Below are positions 4,911 through 60,087 of a stretch of 64,000 bases of DNA, one piece after another. The notes under the pieces are model-generated. The model searched no databases. It worked only from the letters and a program-made list of their open reading frames with translations, and was not told the DNA's origin. Source of the stretch: Verrucomicrobiaceae bacterium (GTDB lineage Bacteria; Verrucomicrobiota; Verrucomicrobiia; Verrucomicrobiales; Verrucomicrobiaceae); assembly GCA_019694165.1 (NCBI GenBank), contig JAIBCL010000001.1, positions 124,001-188,000 on the forward strand. The letters are read 5' to 3'. The number at the start of each line of letters is the position of its first letter. The stretch's first letter is position 1. The translations under genes and the position numbers were made by a program.

Positions 4911-5190
4911 ATGGTGGGTTCGGAGGTGACCGGGGTCGTTGTTCACCACAGGGGCCGGGTTGTTCGCAACTTGTTCACAGAAATCGGGCGGCGTGACGGC
5001 GGGAGAACCACAACATCTTGTTTCAGCCCTCGAAGGAACGCCCAATATTTTGCGGTTTCGTGTTTTTTTGCTTGGCGGTTTGAGGGGCGGCGTGTTTAAC
5101 TCGCGACCTTCCGAAAATCGGTGGCGCATCCCGTTTCCGAGTCCGGCTCCGACACCAACCCAGCACTCTCCTTCCCCCCTTTCCCCGACC

Positions 5191-8100
5191 ATGTATCTCA
5201 AGACGCTGACCATCCACGGCTTCAAGTCCTTCGCGGACAAGACGCACTTTGAATTCCACCCCGGAGTGACCGGCATCGTGGGGCCGAACGGCTGCGGGAA
5301 ATCGAACGTGGTGGACGCGGTGCGCTGGGTGCTGGGTGAGACCTCCGCGAAGGCGCTGCGTGGCGACGAAATGGCGGACGTGATTTTCAACGGCACGGAC
5401 AAGCGCAAGCCGGTGGGCATGGCGGAGGTGCAGCTCACGTTTGGCGATTGCGAGCAGGCGCTCGGCGTGGACTACAACGAGGTGGCCATCTGTCGCCGCG
5501 TTTTCCGCGATGGTCGCTCGGAGTACCGTCTGAACGGGACGGTGTGCCGGCTGAAGGATTTCCAGGATTTGTTTGCCGGCACGGGCATCGGCCGCACGGC
5601 GTACTCGATCATGGCACAGGGGCAGATCGACATGCTGCTCAGCTCGAAGCCGGAGGACCGGCGCTCGGTGTTCGAGGAGGCGGCGGGCATCACGAAGTTC
5701 AAGTCGCAGAAGAAGGAGGCGCTGCGGAAGCTGGAGTTCACGGAGGCGAACCTGCTGCGCGTGGCGGACATCATCGCGGAGGTGAAGCGCCAGATGGGAT
5801 CGCTGCAAAGGCAGGCGGCCAAGGCGCGGCGTTATCAAAACTTCCTCGCTGATCTGCGGATGCTGGACACGCATCTGGCGCACAAGCACTGGCTGGATCT
5901 GAACGCGGAGAAATCGGAGTCGGAGACGCAGATTCGCACGCTGTCGCTGCAGCTCGACCAGCTCCAGCGCAGGCTGGCGGCGACGGAAAGCGAGACGAGC
6001 GAGACTCGCGAGGCCTACCACGCGGTGGAGAGCACGATCAATCAACTGCGCGGCCAGGCGCAGGAACTCCGCTCGCAAGTGCAGAGCGCGGAGGGCCGCA
6101 TCGGCTTCAATCGCGAACGTGCGGAGGAGCTGCAAATGCGCATCCAGCAGAATCGCGAGGACACGGACAAGAGCCGCGCGCTGCTCGATGATCAGCAGCG
6201 CGAGGTGGCGAGCGCGGACGAGCAGATCCGCGCGCTCTTCGCGAACATCGAAAGTCGCCAGCTCTCGCTGAACGAGCATCACGCGGTGCATCAGTCCATC
6301 GTGCCGGAGCGCACGGGCATCGAGTCGAACCGTCGCGCGATGCGCGAGCAGATTCGTGTGACGGAAGGCCAGATCGCCGCGGCGGAGGCGAAGATGCAGA
6401 GCCTCACGAATCAAATCTCGGCGGACCGCCAGCGGCACGAATCGCTGCAAAAAGACCGGCAGGCCGCGGCGCAGGCGCGCGAGACGAGCCAGGTGGAGTT
6501 TGACGAGCTGCAGCGCATGATTCACGAGGCGGAGGCGCAGCGGAACGAACTGGAAGAGAAGCTCAAGCAATGCGCCCGCGAGATCGTGGAGAAGCGCAAG
6601 CAGCGCGATGCGCTGGCCGACGAACTCAGCGAAATCCAGCGTGCAGCCACGCAACGCCGCTCGCGTCTCGAAGCGCTGGAGCAGCTTTTGCAAAAAGGCG
6701 AGGGCCTTGAGCAGGGCACGCAGCATGTGCTGCGCGGTCTGGACAATCCGGAGGTATACATGACCGGCGTGCGCGGCCTGCTGGCGTCGTCGATCGAAGT
6801 CGATCCGCAGTTCATTTCCGCAATCGAAGCCGCGTTGCGCGACAATTTGCAGGCGGTGCTGCTGGCGGATTCAGAACTCGCTTCGCAGATCGTCGATCGC
6901 CTCACGAGCCAGCAGCTCGGCAAGGCGGCGATCGTGCCGCAGGACTTCGTTTCACTGCGCGCCGCGCCGGATCGCCAGCTTCTGCCAGACGGCGCGATTG
7001 CGTGGGCGGTGGACAAGGTGAAGGCGGTGAACGGATCGCAATCGCTGGTCGATCATCTGCTGTGCAATGTTTTGATCGCCGAGGATCTGAACGCGGCCAT
7101 TCGCCTGAAGAAATCGCATCCCGATCTCGCGATCGCGACGATCAACGGTTCGCTCGTATCGACGGAAGGCGTGATCTTCGGCGGCGCGGGCAAGGAAGAG
7201 GCGGCATCGACGCTGCGCCGCGAAGCCGAGGTGCGCGGATTGCGCGGCGAGGTGGAGGCGCTGGAGCTTCAGCTTCACGAGAAGGAGGAACAGGTGCTGG
7301 CCATCCGCGCGCGGACCGAGGAGCAGCAGCACGAGGAGATCGCGCTGCGCGAGCAGAGCCAGCGTGCGCGCGAGGAATTCTCGCAGATGCAGGGCCAGGT
7401 GAGCGTGGTGCAGCGTGCGCTGCAGCAGGCGACGGCGAAGCTGGAGAGTTTTGACTGGGAGCAGGAGCAAATCGGCGGCCGCATGGCGGATGCCGAGGCG
7501 CAGATCGCCGCGCATCGCGAGACGATCGCCGCGGCGCAGCAGCAACTTGAAGCTGCCCGCGTGCGCGAAAGTGAGCTGGAGATCGAGATCGAAAACGTGA
7601 CGCGCCGCGAACTCGAATCACAGGAGCGGTTGAACGAATTGCGCACGGCGCTGGCGCTGGCGCAGAGTTCGCTGCAATCCGTCGAGCGCCAGAAGGCACC
7701 ACTCGCGATGCGCATCAGCGAACTGCAAAACGCGATCAACCGCTACGAGCAGGAAGTCGTGTCGTGGCAGCAGCGCGTCGAGACCGGGACTGCGGAGAAC
7801 GCGCGCCTCGGCGAGCAGATCGAGGAGCAGCGCTCGGCGGTCGGGCGCATCGAAGAAGAGCTGCAAATGCGGTCGAGTGATCGCGCGGCGGCGTTTGAAA
7901 AAGTCACCGCGCTGGAGAACCAGCTCACCGCATTGCGTCACCAGACCAGCGAGCTGAACGAATCACGCAGCCGCGCCGAAGTGCAGCTCACGCGTGTGGA
8001 TTTGCGCCTGGAGAACCTGAACAACCAGATCACCGAGCGGTACCAGATGCAGCTCGACGCCTTTGAGCCTGACCCGCATGAGCTGCTCCTCGCGATCAAC

Positions 8101-55522: not shown

Positions 55523-55540
55523 GCAGATCTCGGTGGCACC

Positions 55541-55630
55541 TCATCGCCGGAGCTGTGGCGACGGCGAGCGCAAGACTCCGCTTATGCGACAGACTGCTAC
55601 GAGCCGTTGCCACCAGCATTTTGGTGTTGG
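55541..55630 (-). repeat. degenerate attC-like site E (end of array)
   Basis: The L arms still pair: GCTGTGGCGACGGC near 55552-55565 against GCCGTTGCCACCAGC near 55603-55617, again with one extra G. The R boxes are not recognisable and the expected GTTCGGC, predicted from the 5' end of cassette 6, is missing. It looks like a decayed attC closing the array next to cysS. Confidence 0.55.
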
Positions 55631-55666
55631 TGGCGTCGGATCATTTCGATGTCGGGTAAGAGATTG

Positions 55667-56053: not shown

Positions 56054-56071
56054 GGTGCGCTCTGTTTCTTG

Positions 56072-56164
56072 GCCGAACGACCCGGATCAGGCGACGGCGA
56101 GCGCAAGACGTTGCTGACACGACAGATAGCCTTCGAGCCGTTGCCTGCATCCGTTTTGTTCTGC
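56072..56164 (-). repeat. attC site A (cassette 5)
   Basis: 93 bp. Read on the minus strand: R'' GCAGAAC (56164-56158), spacer AAAAC, L'' GGATGCAGGC, variable centre, L' GCCTGATCC, spacer GGGTC, R' GTTCGGC (56078-56072). L'' has one extra G relative to L'. R'' GCAGAAC is the exact complement of GTTCTGC at the 5' end of the same cassette. Confidence 0.85.
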
Positions 56165-56172
56165 TTGGTGCA

Positions 56173-56685: not shown

Positions 56686-56690
56686 TTGTC

Positions 56691-56783
56691 AGCAGAACGT
56701 CTCGGATCAGGCGACGGCGAGCGCAAGACGTTGCTGACACGACAGATAGCCTTCGAGCCGTTGCCTGCATCCGTTTTGTTCGC
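56691..56783 (-). repeat. attC site B (cassette 4)
   Basis: 93 bp, nearly identical to site A. Minus strand: R'' GGCGAAC (56783-56777), L'' GGATGCAGGC, L' GCCTGATCC, spacer GAGAC, R' GTTCTGC (56697-56691). R'' matches the GTTCGCC at the 5' end of cassette 4 (site C R'). Confidence 0.87.
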
Positions 56784-56787
56784 CCCG

Positions 56788-57474: not shown

Positions 57475-57481
57475 GACTCAG

Positions 57482-57574
57482 GGCGAACGACCCGGATCAG
57501 GCGACGGCGAGCGGGAAGCGTCGATGACACGACAGATGCCATTCGAGCCGTTGCCTGCATCCGTTTTGTTCGCC
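57482..57574 (-). repeat. attC site C (cassette 3)
   Basis: 93 bp. Minus strand: R'' GGCGAAC (57574-57568), L'' GGATGCAGGC, L' GCCTGATCC, spacer GGGTC, R' GTTCGCC (57488-57482). The centre differs from A and B by several substitutions, while the arms are conserved. Confidence 0.87.
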
Positions 57575-57596
57575 TTTGGTTGGCTGTGATTGGCGT

Positions 57597-58034
57597 TCAT
57601 ATCTTGATCTTCCCTGATAACCACCAATCGAGATAAGTCGGAAGACACGGTGCTACCCATGTGCGGCTGTCATCCTCGTGACTCCAACAGAAGATGTCCG
57701 TCCTCGTGATCTCACCCCCACACAGACTGTATCCAAACTGATCTCCGTTCCCAGCGTCTCCGAAGAAAAGCAGGGCATCGAAAGGCATGTAAAGTGATCG
57801 GAACTCGGAGAACGTCCTAAAGTGCTCATTCCGGCTCACGATCTCATCCAGTGGCCAGATCAACCCAAGTCCATAGTCACCTGAAAGGCCGTCACTGGTA
57901 GTCAGTAGCGAAACAAGCTCGTCGGGAAAGGCTGCTCCCAACTTCGATGAAGCCGTCTCCACTCGCTCACGGGCTACCGCTGGATGGGTTTCCAGATTCG
58001 GATGGTGAATCGCTAGATGTGTCTTCCAGTCCAT
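57597..58034 (-). CDS. cassette 3: SMI1/KNR4 (SUKH) family protein
   Basis: 145 residues. VETASSKLGAAFPDELVSLL, LSGDYGLGLIWPLDEIVSRN, and DALLFFGDAGNGDQFGYSL are the classic SUKH fold landmarks. Bacterial SUKH proteins are mostly immunity proteins against polymorphic toxins; a lone copy in a cassette may protect against incoming toxin from competitors. ATG 27 bp after attC F, stop 22 bp before attC C. Confidence 0.86.
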   Translation of the reverse strand: MDWKTHLAIHHPNLETHPAVARERVETASSKLGAAFPDELVSLLTTSDGLSGDYGLGLIWPLDEIVSRNEHFRTFSEFRSLYMPFDALLFFGDAGNGDQFGYSLCGGEITRTDIFCWSHEDDSRTWVAPCLPTYLDWWLSGKIKI

Positions 58035-58061
58035 GTCGAACGTGGTGGCGCTTTGAGGTTA

Positions 58062-58151
58062 GGCGAACGTTCAAGCCCAGCCAGCGGCGGAAGGGAACTC
58101 CGTGATGCGACAGTGCGCGGTCGCCGCTTGGCTGCGGCGCTGTGGTTCGTC
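58062..58151 (-). repeat. attC site F (cassette 2), a divergent sequence with the same fold
   Basis: 90 bp. Minus strand: R'' GACGAAC (58151-58145), R' GTTCGCC (58068-58062). Between them CCAGCCAGCGGCG pairs with CGCCGCTTGGCTG, with one extra T as the extrahelical base. The primary sequence is unrelated to A-D, yet the architecture is the same. R'' GACGAAC complements GTTCGTC at the 5' end of cassette 2. Confidence 0.82.
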
Positions 58152-58352
58152 CGGGTTTGCTTCGTTCATGGATAAGGGTGATTGAATCAGGTTCGCAGCG
58201 GCGCTGGCAAGCTCTAACTCATGATGCTGATGAGGTTTCGTCGATGGGTGCGGTGCTCGGCAGGCCAGACTCGATCTTTGGTTCAGGGACAAAGGTGCTC
58301 CGCAGTCGGGCGGCGTGGGTGGGTGCGGGACAAGGAAATCCTGGGGACCCAA
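58071..58352 (-). CDS. cassette 2: doubtful 93-codon ORF; the cassette may be ORF-less
   Basis: Cassette 2 spans about 58152-58398. Its only sizeable sense frame starts at 58352 and runs into attC F, giving a Pro/His/Ser-rich product without motifs. Many integron cassettes carry no real gene; this one may carry a promoter, a small RNA or nothing. Listed for completeness. Confidence 0.2.
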   Translation of the reverse strand: MGPQDFLVPHPPTPPDCGAPLSLNQRSSLACRAPHPSTKPHQHHELELASAAANLIQSPLSMNEANPDEPQRRSQAATAHCRITEFPSAAGWA

Positions 58353-58398
58353 TCCTTGGTTGGAGCGTCAGTTGAACTTCGTTGCTGCCTGCTCTGAG

Positions 58399-58491
58399 GA
58401 CGAACGTCTCGGATCAGGCGACGGCGAGGGGTGGACTTTGAATACACGACAGATAGCCTTCGAGCCGTTGCCTGCATCCGTTTTGTTCGCC
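58399..58491 (-). repeat. attC site D (cassette 1)
   Basis: 93 bp. Minus strand: R'' GGCGAAC (58491-58485), L'' GGATGCAGGC, L' GCCTGATCC, spacer GAGAC, R' GTTCGTC (58405-58399). The centre is diverged from A-C. R'' matches the GTTCGCC in the attI-side junction at 59066-59060. Confidence 0.87.
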
Positions 58492-58534
58492 CTTGGTTGG
58501 TCGTGGATAGACTTCGGTGGAATGTTTCGGCGAG

Positions 58535-59041
58535 CTACTGGAGGACATGTCGCTGAAGGTGCGTGCGTATCTCCATGATACATCGTGAAACATTGGCAGT
58601 CTCCGGAAATGGTGGACTACACCAGATGAAACTAGTCCGCCGGAGAGCTCCCCAAAATGCTGGCGCCCAACTCACATCATCGGTGGGCATCAACTCACAA
58701 GCTTCTGCTATCATACCCCAAAGGGACTCCTGAACATTGGCAGTGGGGTCAGTGTGAAGGATGTAACCGACGAATGGCATGGCAGGAATGATAGCCGGGT
58801 AAACTGCAACATGCTGATGAACTAGTGCACAGTTATCTAGCCAATCTGCGGCTTTCTCCCTCACGGCAGTGCTCGGATCGAGAAGTCTAATAAGGTTGTC
58901 GCCCACGAAAGACTGCTGTCCGACATCGTTGTAGGCCGACTGAAAATCTCTCCACGGAAACTTCAGGACTCTCGAACGATAGTCCTCCGAGCTGTAAGGG
59001 ACAATGTCCAGTCCTGAAATCTGAGCGATATCGATCTGCAC
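58535..59041 (-). CDS. cassette 1: HEAT-like protein, possible immunity protein
   Basis: 168 residues from a GTG at 59041, 18 bp inside the attI-side junction. The central FVGDNLIRLLDPSTAVREKAADW repeats a helical HEAT-like pattern (shown in two runs: FVGDNLIRLLDPSTA and VREKAADW). The rest (MPFVGYILHTDPTANVQ, SLWGMIAEACELMP) is helical too. Such small HEAT-like proteins often act as toxin immunity proteins. Stop 43 bp before attC D, as the first cassette of the array. Confidence 0.7.
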   Translation of the reverse strand: MQIDIAQISGLDIVPYSSEDYRSRVLKFPWRDFQSAYNDVGQQSFVGDNLIRLLDPSTAVREKAADWLDNCALVHQHVAVYPAIIPAMPFVGYILHTDPTANVQESLWGMIAEACELMPTDDVSWAPAFWGALRRTSFIWCSPPFPETANVSRCIMEIRTHLQRHVLQ

Positions 59042-59059: not shown

Positions 59060-59145
59060 GGCGAACGTTGTTTAGCCACAATAAATTGTGGGCGAATCAG
59101 ATTCGTCCACAGTTTTTTGTGGCTATCCAGGGTCGGGTGGTGGTA
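59060..59145. other. presumed attI region between cassettes and the integrase remnant
   Basis: Contains the junction GGCGAAC (59060-59066 plus strand, GTTCGCC on minus), where cassette 1 was inserted. Next to it are nested palindromes: TAGCCACAA (59073-59081) with TTGTGGCTA (59117-59125), CCACAA/TTGTGG, and CGAAT/ATTCG (59092-59104). These resemble accessory binding sites of an attI or an operator for the divergent promoters. AT-rich compared with its flanks. Confidence 0.55.
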
Positions 59146-59157
59146 GAACAGGGGTTC
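59146..59157 (+). promoter_or_regulatory. weak SOS-box-like palindrome upstream of the integrase remnant
   Basis: GAAC AGGG GTTC, a GAAC-N4-GTTC palindrome 19 bp before the ATG at 59177. It resembles the Gram-positive SOS box rather than the TGTTC-N4-GAACA arrangement I recall for Verrucomicrobia, so LexA control is only a possibility. Confidence 0.2.
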
Positions 59158-59176
59158 AATTGGGTGGGATTTGGTT

Positions 59177-59473
59177 ATGAATAAGCCGATGGAAGCGAAA
59201 AGGGCGCCGGAGGTCAAGCCTTGGGTGCGCCGCGTGGTCGAGGCGGCGGGGGTGGTCCTGCCCGCCAACGCGGATGGGGAGCGGCGACTGGGCTGGTGGG
59301 GGGTGGAGATGGCGCGGTTTTTGAAGTTCTGCAAAAGCCTGCCGGAGGGGACGGATTTGCGCCCGGCGATGGAGGGCTATGGGCGCTATTTGAAGAGCAT
59401 TGTGCCGCCGCCGCAGGACTGGCAGCTCGAGCAGGTGCGGGAGGGGCTGCGCTGCTTCCAAAGCCATCATTGA
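59177..59473 (+). pseudogene. truncated integron-type tyrosine recombinase (N-terminal domain only)
   Basis: 98 codons from ATG 59177, then a stop. The sequence VEMARFLKFCKSLPEG ... GYGRYLKSIVPPPQDWQLEQ and REGLRCFQ fits the N-terminal SAM-like DNA-binding domain of IntI/Xer-type recombinases (W-Q-x-x-Q-x-x-x-x-L pattern). The whole catalytic domain with R-H-R-Y is absent. It is divergent from the cassettes and adjacent to the presumed attI, exactly where intI should be. At about 59460 the sequence switches to the Fn3-type gene, so a deletion or recombination fused the two. It cannot be functional. Confidence 0.72.
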
Positions 59474-60087
59474 TTTCACCGACTACTCGGCCCCCGAGCT
59501 GGGGACCGTAGGCCAAGACATCCATGACAAGATGCTGCTCGATGCCGCAACCTTCACCGACCCGCCCATTGCCATGACCGCCCTGCAGACGCTCATCACC
59601 GACTACCTCACCAAGCAGGCGGCCAAGGCCAGCCGGGCCAAGGCGGACGTGCTCGCCGCCCGGGTGGCGCGCGAGGGCCTGGAGGAAACACTGGCGGACC
59701 TCGGCGGGTATGTGAACACGGTGGGTGGCCAAGGGCGACCCCGTCATCATCGAGAAAAGCGGCATCCCCTCGTATGACACGGCGCACACGCCCACCGCCG
59801 GTCCGCCCGCCGCGCCGACCAACCTGCGCCTGAGCACGGGCGGCCTGAGCGGTCAGCTAAGTGCCCGCTACAAACCGGACCGCAGGCCGAGCACCAACGA
59901 GGTGCAGGTCAACACCGGCGACCCCAACAGCGAACCCGGCTGGCACACGAAGGGCATCTTCCAAAGCGGCAAGGCCGTGCTCAACGGGCTGACCCCCGGT
60001 GCCTGCGTGTGGGTGCGCGTGCGCACCGTCGGCCTCAACGGCGTGATGGGCGCCTGGAGCGATCCGGCGGAAATCATGGTGGTGTGA
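59463..60087 (+). pseudogene. frameshifted Fn3-type protein, lacking its start
   Basis: The 5' part (IIDFTDYSAPELGTVGQDIH ... GLEETLADLGGYVNTV) and the 3' part (KGDPVIIEKSGIPSYDTAHT ... VWVRVRTVGLNGVMGAWSDP) together make a known type of about 210-residue protein: a helical N-terminal half and an Fn3-like C-terminal half. They are in different frames. GTGGGTGG at about 59721-59728 looks like a 4-nt duplication of GGTG where other copies read GTGGCC, which explains the shift. No start codon precedes the homology, because the gene begins at the fusion with the integrase remnant. Confidence 0.75.

Follow-up and report, generated by a model that had tools for sequence, protein, structure and literature searches.

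An integron integrase reduced to its N-terminal extension beside an intact attI site and cassette array, probably one of a recurrent class of orphan integron heads in Verrucomicrobiales

Loss of the integron integrase is usually taken as the end of an array's evolution. The locus described here lies in a stretch of 64,000 nucleotides (the window, G000:C22:124001-188000) of a 7.8-Mb draft genome of a Verrucomicrobiaceae bacterium, and it raises the question of what is left of an integron after such a loss, and for what use. A reading frame of 98 codons (59177..59473, from the ATG at 59177 to a stop ending at 59473) runs on the plus strand, divergent from a cassette array on the minus strand:

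59177..59473, plus strand: intI stub ORF; codons 1-95 are homologous to intact IntI, and the remainder is read-through into the partner gene
59062..59176, plus strand: attI and intI leader, intact, identical at four loci of the genome
59074..59124, no strand assigned: attI palindrome with 25-nt arms, its sequence conserved in relatives, with no covariation
58535..59041, minus strand: gene of cassette 1, 168 aa, function not recognised
58396..58493, minus strand: attC, 105 bits
58059..58153, minus strand: weak attC, 29 bits, ending a cassette without a clear gene (cassette 58060-58395)
57597..58034, minus strand: cassette gene of the SMI1/KNR4 (SUKH) family, from a domain search
57479..57576, minus strand: attC, 114 bits
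56788..57474, minus strand: cassette gene, 228 aa, function not recognised
56689..56786, minus strand: attC, with 89 nt that recur unchanged in one attC of the array on C56
56173..56685, minus strand: cassette gene, 170 aa, function not recognised
56069..56166, minus strand: attC, 118 bits
55667..56053, minus strand: cassette gene, 128 aa, function not recognised
55536..55632, minus strand: last attC, 75 bits, 13 bp from the end of cysS

Contig C38 of the same genome carries an intact integron integrase of 470 aa, which matches TIGR02249 with 393.5 bits (cut-off 265) and has the SAM-like core-binding domain (PF13495) at residues 157-239 and the catalytic domain (PF00589) at residues 257-456. 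Its residues 164-468 align with the solved structure of IntI4 (2a3v), and all catalytic residues and the IntI-specific region are present and invariant among relatives. Over residues 1-96 the stub is 95% identical to this protein; in DNA, the identity is 98% over codons 1-95 and also over a 411-bp span that includes attI. The homology stops at codon 95, and the recognised domains start only at residue 157. Judged by this alignment, the stub comes from an integron integrase and comprises solely the N-terminal extension that precedes the recognised domains. The initial annotation correctly saw in this frame a truncated integrase heading the array, but believed that the SAM-like domain had been retained and the catalytic domain alone lost; in fact, both are missing. 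The lost 3' part, including the catalytic half, is found in this genome inside the intact C38 gene and nowhere else.

Profile searches with the 98 residues gave no match in Pfam or NCBIfam, and the relation to IntI comes through the C38 protein. A comparison of the stub with the core domain by hhalign returned a weak match (38 columns, E 0.004 for a single comparison, probability 8%), by which the N-terminal extension might be a second SAM-like copy; the predicted structure of the extension, a low-confidence model, produced no fold match. The gene at the window locus appears to have been coding until recently, because six of the seven differences between the stub and the C38 gene are at third codon positions. 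These differences, none of which falls in the 115 bp before the start codon, suggest, as far as a sample of seven goes, that intI here was coding through most of the divergence of the two copies. The intact intI is closely followed, at L034:10426-10668, by part of another tyrosine recombinase (38% over 86 residues).

The attC sites were located with a covariance model built from eleven sites, these same ones included, with the relatives serving as the independent test. It detects five strong attC and one weak attC in the window, all in cassette orientation, and 28 in the entire genome, on C11, C22 (two places), C34, C46, C56, C14 and C20. Because several structured attC sites, all pointing the same way, adjoin attI, the locus is an integron cassette array; with only an intI stub adjoining, it is also a CALIN, though unlike a plain CALIN it has kept attI. 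A search of the window against Rfam gave no match. An identical stretch of 115 bp leads up to the intI start codon at four places: at C38, beside the intact intI; in the window; at C11, beside a stub of 44 codons; and at C56, where the match to intI breaks off after codon 3 and the following sequence looks like the end of an IS3-family element. The C56 contig stops within this IS3-like end (L098, head at 5108-5241), and C9 has a further, weaker relic of intI. Since the arms of the attI palindrome pair without covariation, the palindrome is conserved as sequence; pairing in RNA was rejected as an explanation, given that the variable pair columns 31/45 are Watson-Crick in 34/81 against 37.5 expected by shuffling.

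From the loss of the integrase the initial annotation had concluded that the array was frozen and hence stable. This does not follow, and nothing observed pointed to stability either: the array is not established as frozen, because an intact IntI and an identical attI both exist in the same genome, and the C38 integrase could, judging by these sequences, act in trans at the window site. An array frozen by integrase loss, a static relic in which the intI remnant and attI have no function, is in our view unlikely. It would agree with the fact that intI at this locus is dead and that the window array has no cassette gene in common with the other arrays of the genome, only attC sites, but it sits poorly with the intact IntI and its identical attI, and with attC sites that are up to 100% identical between arrays. 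The missing overlap in cassette genes, which gives no sign of recent activity in the window array, we also count against our own explanation.

At its 3' end, the stub runs into another broken gene on the same strand:

59458..59462, no strand assigned: junction; CCAAA is common to intI and most homologues of the partner gene, a putative microhomology deduced from these homologues
59460..60087, plus strand: remnant of the Fn3-type gene, with the first four or so codons missing and a frameshift near 59720

A fusion at about 59460 to an Fn3-type gene had been proposed. The junction stands; a Pfam search of the partner gave no significant fn3 match. The accompanying claim that both partners are broken is borne out: intI ends after codon 95, identity with it extending to 59462, and the partner, besides lacking about four codons, carries its own frameshift. 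Homologues of the partner start with M-x-x-T-KAIIDF, and the window copy starts at about the fifth codon of this. The sequences at the junction are TTCCAAAAGG in intI, ACCAAAGC in most partner homologues and TTCCAAAGCC in the window, and a single deletion at CCAAA accounts for the window sequence; comparison with the homologues indicates that it probably took place at this microhomology. The undeleted or pre-insertion locus was not found; in relatives, the genes that follow the array are not within 1.5 kb after cysS.

Could the junction have arisen in assembly? Repeats do disturb assembly here: integron heads lie at or close to the ends of contigs C38 and C56, and attC sites stand at the start of C34 and C46. 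The window copy, however, is on a contig of 748 kb whose nearer end is about 183 kb away, its break matches the end of no other copy, and truncation is seen again in many assemblies made independently, all of which makes an artefact highly improbable.

Relatives with the same gene, where named, are MAGs of Verrucomicrobiales, mostly of Verrucomicrobiaceae. The attI sequence is present in 34 of the 68 genomes of the family, with up to about eight distinct copies per genome (raw counts of attI matches take in both strands of the palindrome). It also occurs in a second family of the order, where one locus (L206) has an intact extended IntI, 58-60% identical, beside attI. We collected 86 copies of attI heads, some of them related by descent (e.g., L113 and L144). 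For 80 heads there was enough sequence towards the array to look for attC: 45 of them carry a correctly oriented site there within 4 kb, and two carry one on the opposite side. Arrays headed by attI and devoid of intI are thus spread through the family, a pattern invisible from one window. In five genomes with many heads each (G045, G022, G050, G052, G055), nothing resembles an integron integrase beyond the level of XerC/XerD. That several relatives keep heads and arrays without any such enzyme is a further point for the static relic.

The stubs share a truncation boundary. Near the 5' end of intI, which is about 1410 nt in full length, the hexamer GTCAAG occupies nt 37-42 (codons 13-14). The 41 measurable truncation ends are distributed as follows: one at nt 1-36, 14 at nt 37-60, 25 at nt 61-306 and one later (nt 483). 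Hence 40 of 41 lie 3' of GTCAAG, 14 of these within 18 nt of it, a distribution to be read knowing that ends 5' of the motif are hard to detect and that 41 further heads have no measurable end. GTCAAG is the commonest hexamer to the right of attI, found in 48 of 83 heads against one of 83 in a control stretch; about 35 of the 83 do without the exact motif, some of these with arrays. Five heads (L126, L128, L129, L138, L143) have GTCAAG in place while their flanks are at chance level in a motif-blind test, and the same boundary recurs in the second family (L207, L209). Across 34 stubs, conservation is the same at all three codon positions, with GTCAAG standing out, so that constraint at the peptide level is unsupported. 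Progressive shortening of stubs with age is likewise unsupported (length against identity to the nearest intact intI, a crude proxy of age: rho 0.23, p 0.17).

On the cassette strand the motif reads CTTGAC; weak -10-like hexamers come 16-17 nt after it, in the one family as in the other. In the window, the candidate elements of the cassette promoter, Pc, are:

59213..59218, minus strand: candidate -35 box of Pc (GTCAAG on the plus strand, TTGAC on the cassette strand), with a presumed promoter function
59189-59194, minus strand: candidate -10 of Pc (TTCCAT), weak

A standard sigma-70 promoter scan reported no promoter at the stub locus. In class 1 integrons the cassette promoter lies inside the intI coding region. 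The simplest reading of GTCAAG may be that it is part of a Pc inside intI, and the position of the breakpoints suggests a cassette promoter within the gene as the point where deletions stop. A truncation pile-up 3' of one motif speaks against the static relic, since pure decay predicts nothing of the kind.

The history that we consider likely is that a once complete integron lost the 3' part of its intI by deletion, and that the remnant keeps attI, the Pc region and the array. It draws on the homology of the stub, the intact copy, the identical attI sites, the recurrence of heads, the breakpoint distribution and the conservation of the motif. At the start, intI, attI and cassettes would all have been present here as a complete integron. 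A deletion, for which the CCAAA microhomology is the probable site, would have removed intI from codon 96 on, the intervening DNA and the start of the downstream gene on the same strand, so that 95 codons of intI remained together with attI and the array. The remnant would probably still be useful DNA, as the candidate Pc in the first 14 codons reads into the array, and with attI intact the C38 integrase could insert cassettes here in trans. The same process seems to have occurred many times in the family: deletions take intI from the 3' side, and what tends to survive is attI with the Pc region. A single truncation of intI is an event of an ordinary, known kind; the stub in the window is probably a member of a recurrent, promoter-bounded class of orphan integron heads.

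Might the unit of stub and attI instead spread as a stub, heads being copied within a genome after truncation by some unspecified mechanism? Two pairs of heads match past the breakpoint (G053 C6/C3, with 407 bp aligned at 84%, and G045 C11/C19), G106 has its three heads on one contig, and two stubs of G040 run into one and the same attC-like sequence. Yet the breakpoints differ among the four copies in the genome studied here, and the junction in the window fits a simple deletion in place, so that copying is a doubtful account. Returning to deletion from complete integrons, one may go further and propose, tentatively, that integrons of these Verrucomicrobiales have several ports: dispersed heads, each made of attI and a promoter remaining from intI, would have been selected for capture and expression, served in trans by one integrase or outliving it, as functional modules and not mere relics.

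How do these heads compare with known systems? About one third of intI genes are inactive ('pseudo-integrons'), and near-identical functional and broken copies have been reported within one genome (Nemergut et al. 2008, PMC2426708). Inactive intI genes, and near-identical intact and broken copies side by side in a genome, are seen here as well, whereas neither attI heads nor a shared truncation boundary are described there. The same study notes an IntI clade about 120 aa longer than usual (PMC2426708), and the IntI described here is likewise long. In chromosomal integrons of Xanthomonas, arrays outlive frameshifts or large deletions of intI (PMC12444791), and CALINs are considered degraded integrons whose arrays can be mobilised in trans (PMC9024848, PMC12444791). 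Persistence of arrays after the loss of intI is common to these systems and ours; however, intI in Xanthomonas is at one locus (ilvD), and here attI and the 5' end of intI have been retained in numerous dispersed heads. An active IntI1 can impose a cost and is then quickly lost (PMC3510236); this offers a reason why intI should disappear repeatedly and the cassettes remain, although those losses were frameshifts in experimental class 1 integrons and ours are large 3' deletions in nature. The Pc of the V. cholerae superintegron lies near attI, runs opposite to intI, overlaps the promoter of the integrase gene and drives expression of the first cassettes (PMC3948777); the candidate described here has the same proximity and direction, but is inside the intI coding region. 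Our search for dispersed or orphan attI sites found no paper, with most subscription journals outside its coverage; as a weak negative from incomplete coverage, recurrent heads with a common truncation boundary appear undescribed.

One genome thus has four arrays with identical attI and an intact integrase at one only, and truncations pile up at one motif in two families. If this motif is the cassette promoter, the heads reveal what it pays to retain of an integron that has lost its enzyme, and they open a way to attI sites other than those of class 1, which have so far been poorly described (PMC9024848); the idea of a single integrase at work on many arrays would also become testable.

Several loci deserve separate mention. 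The three attI-like heads of G106 (L205, contig C253) point in the same direction, 2-3 kb apart, and have their right-hand sequence in common. Both G040 stubs (L142 and L155, on C66 and C114) are fused at the same place, so that the head stands directly after attC DNA. A second, distant tyrosine recombinase is found on the array side of one head (L064:1815-2591, in G049), and the sequence adjoining attI at L101 (G036) is nearly the same as at this locus. Heads from different genomes (L100, L108, L117, L130, L157) have the same right-hand flank, as if their common ancestor had already carried a head there. Finally, relics of about 27 codons from the 5' end of intI occur without attI or nearby attC (L052, L053, L058, L057, L036:2958); two relics of this length from different genomes are nearly identical and have unrelated flanks.
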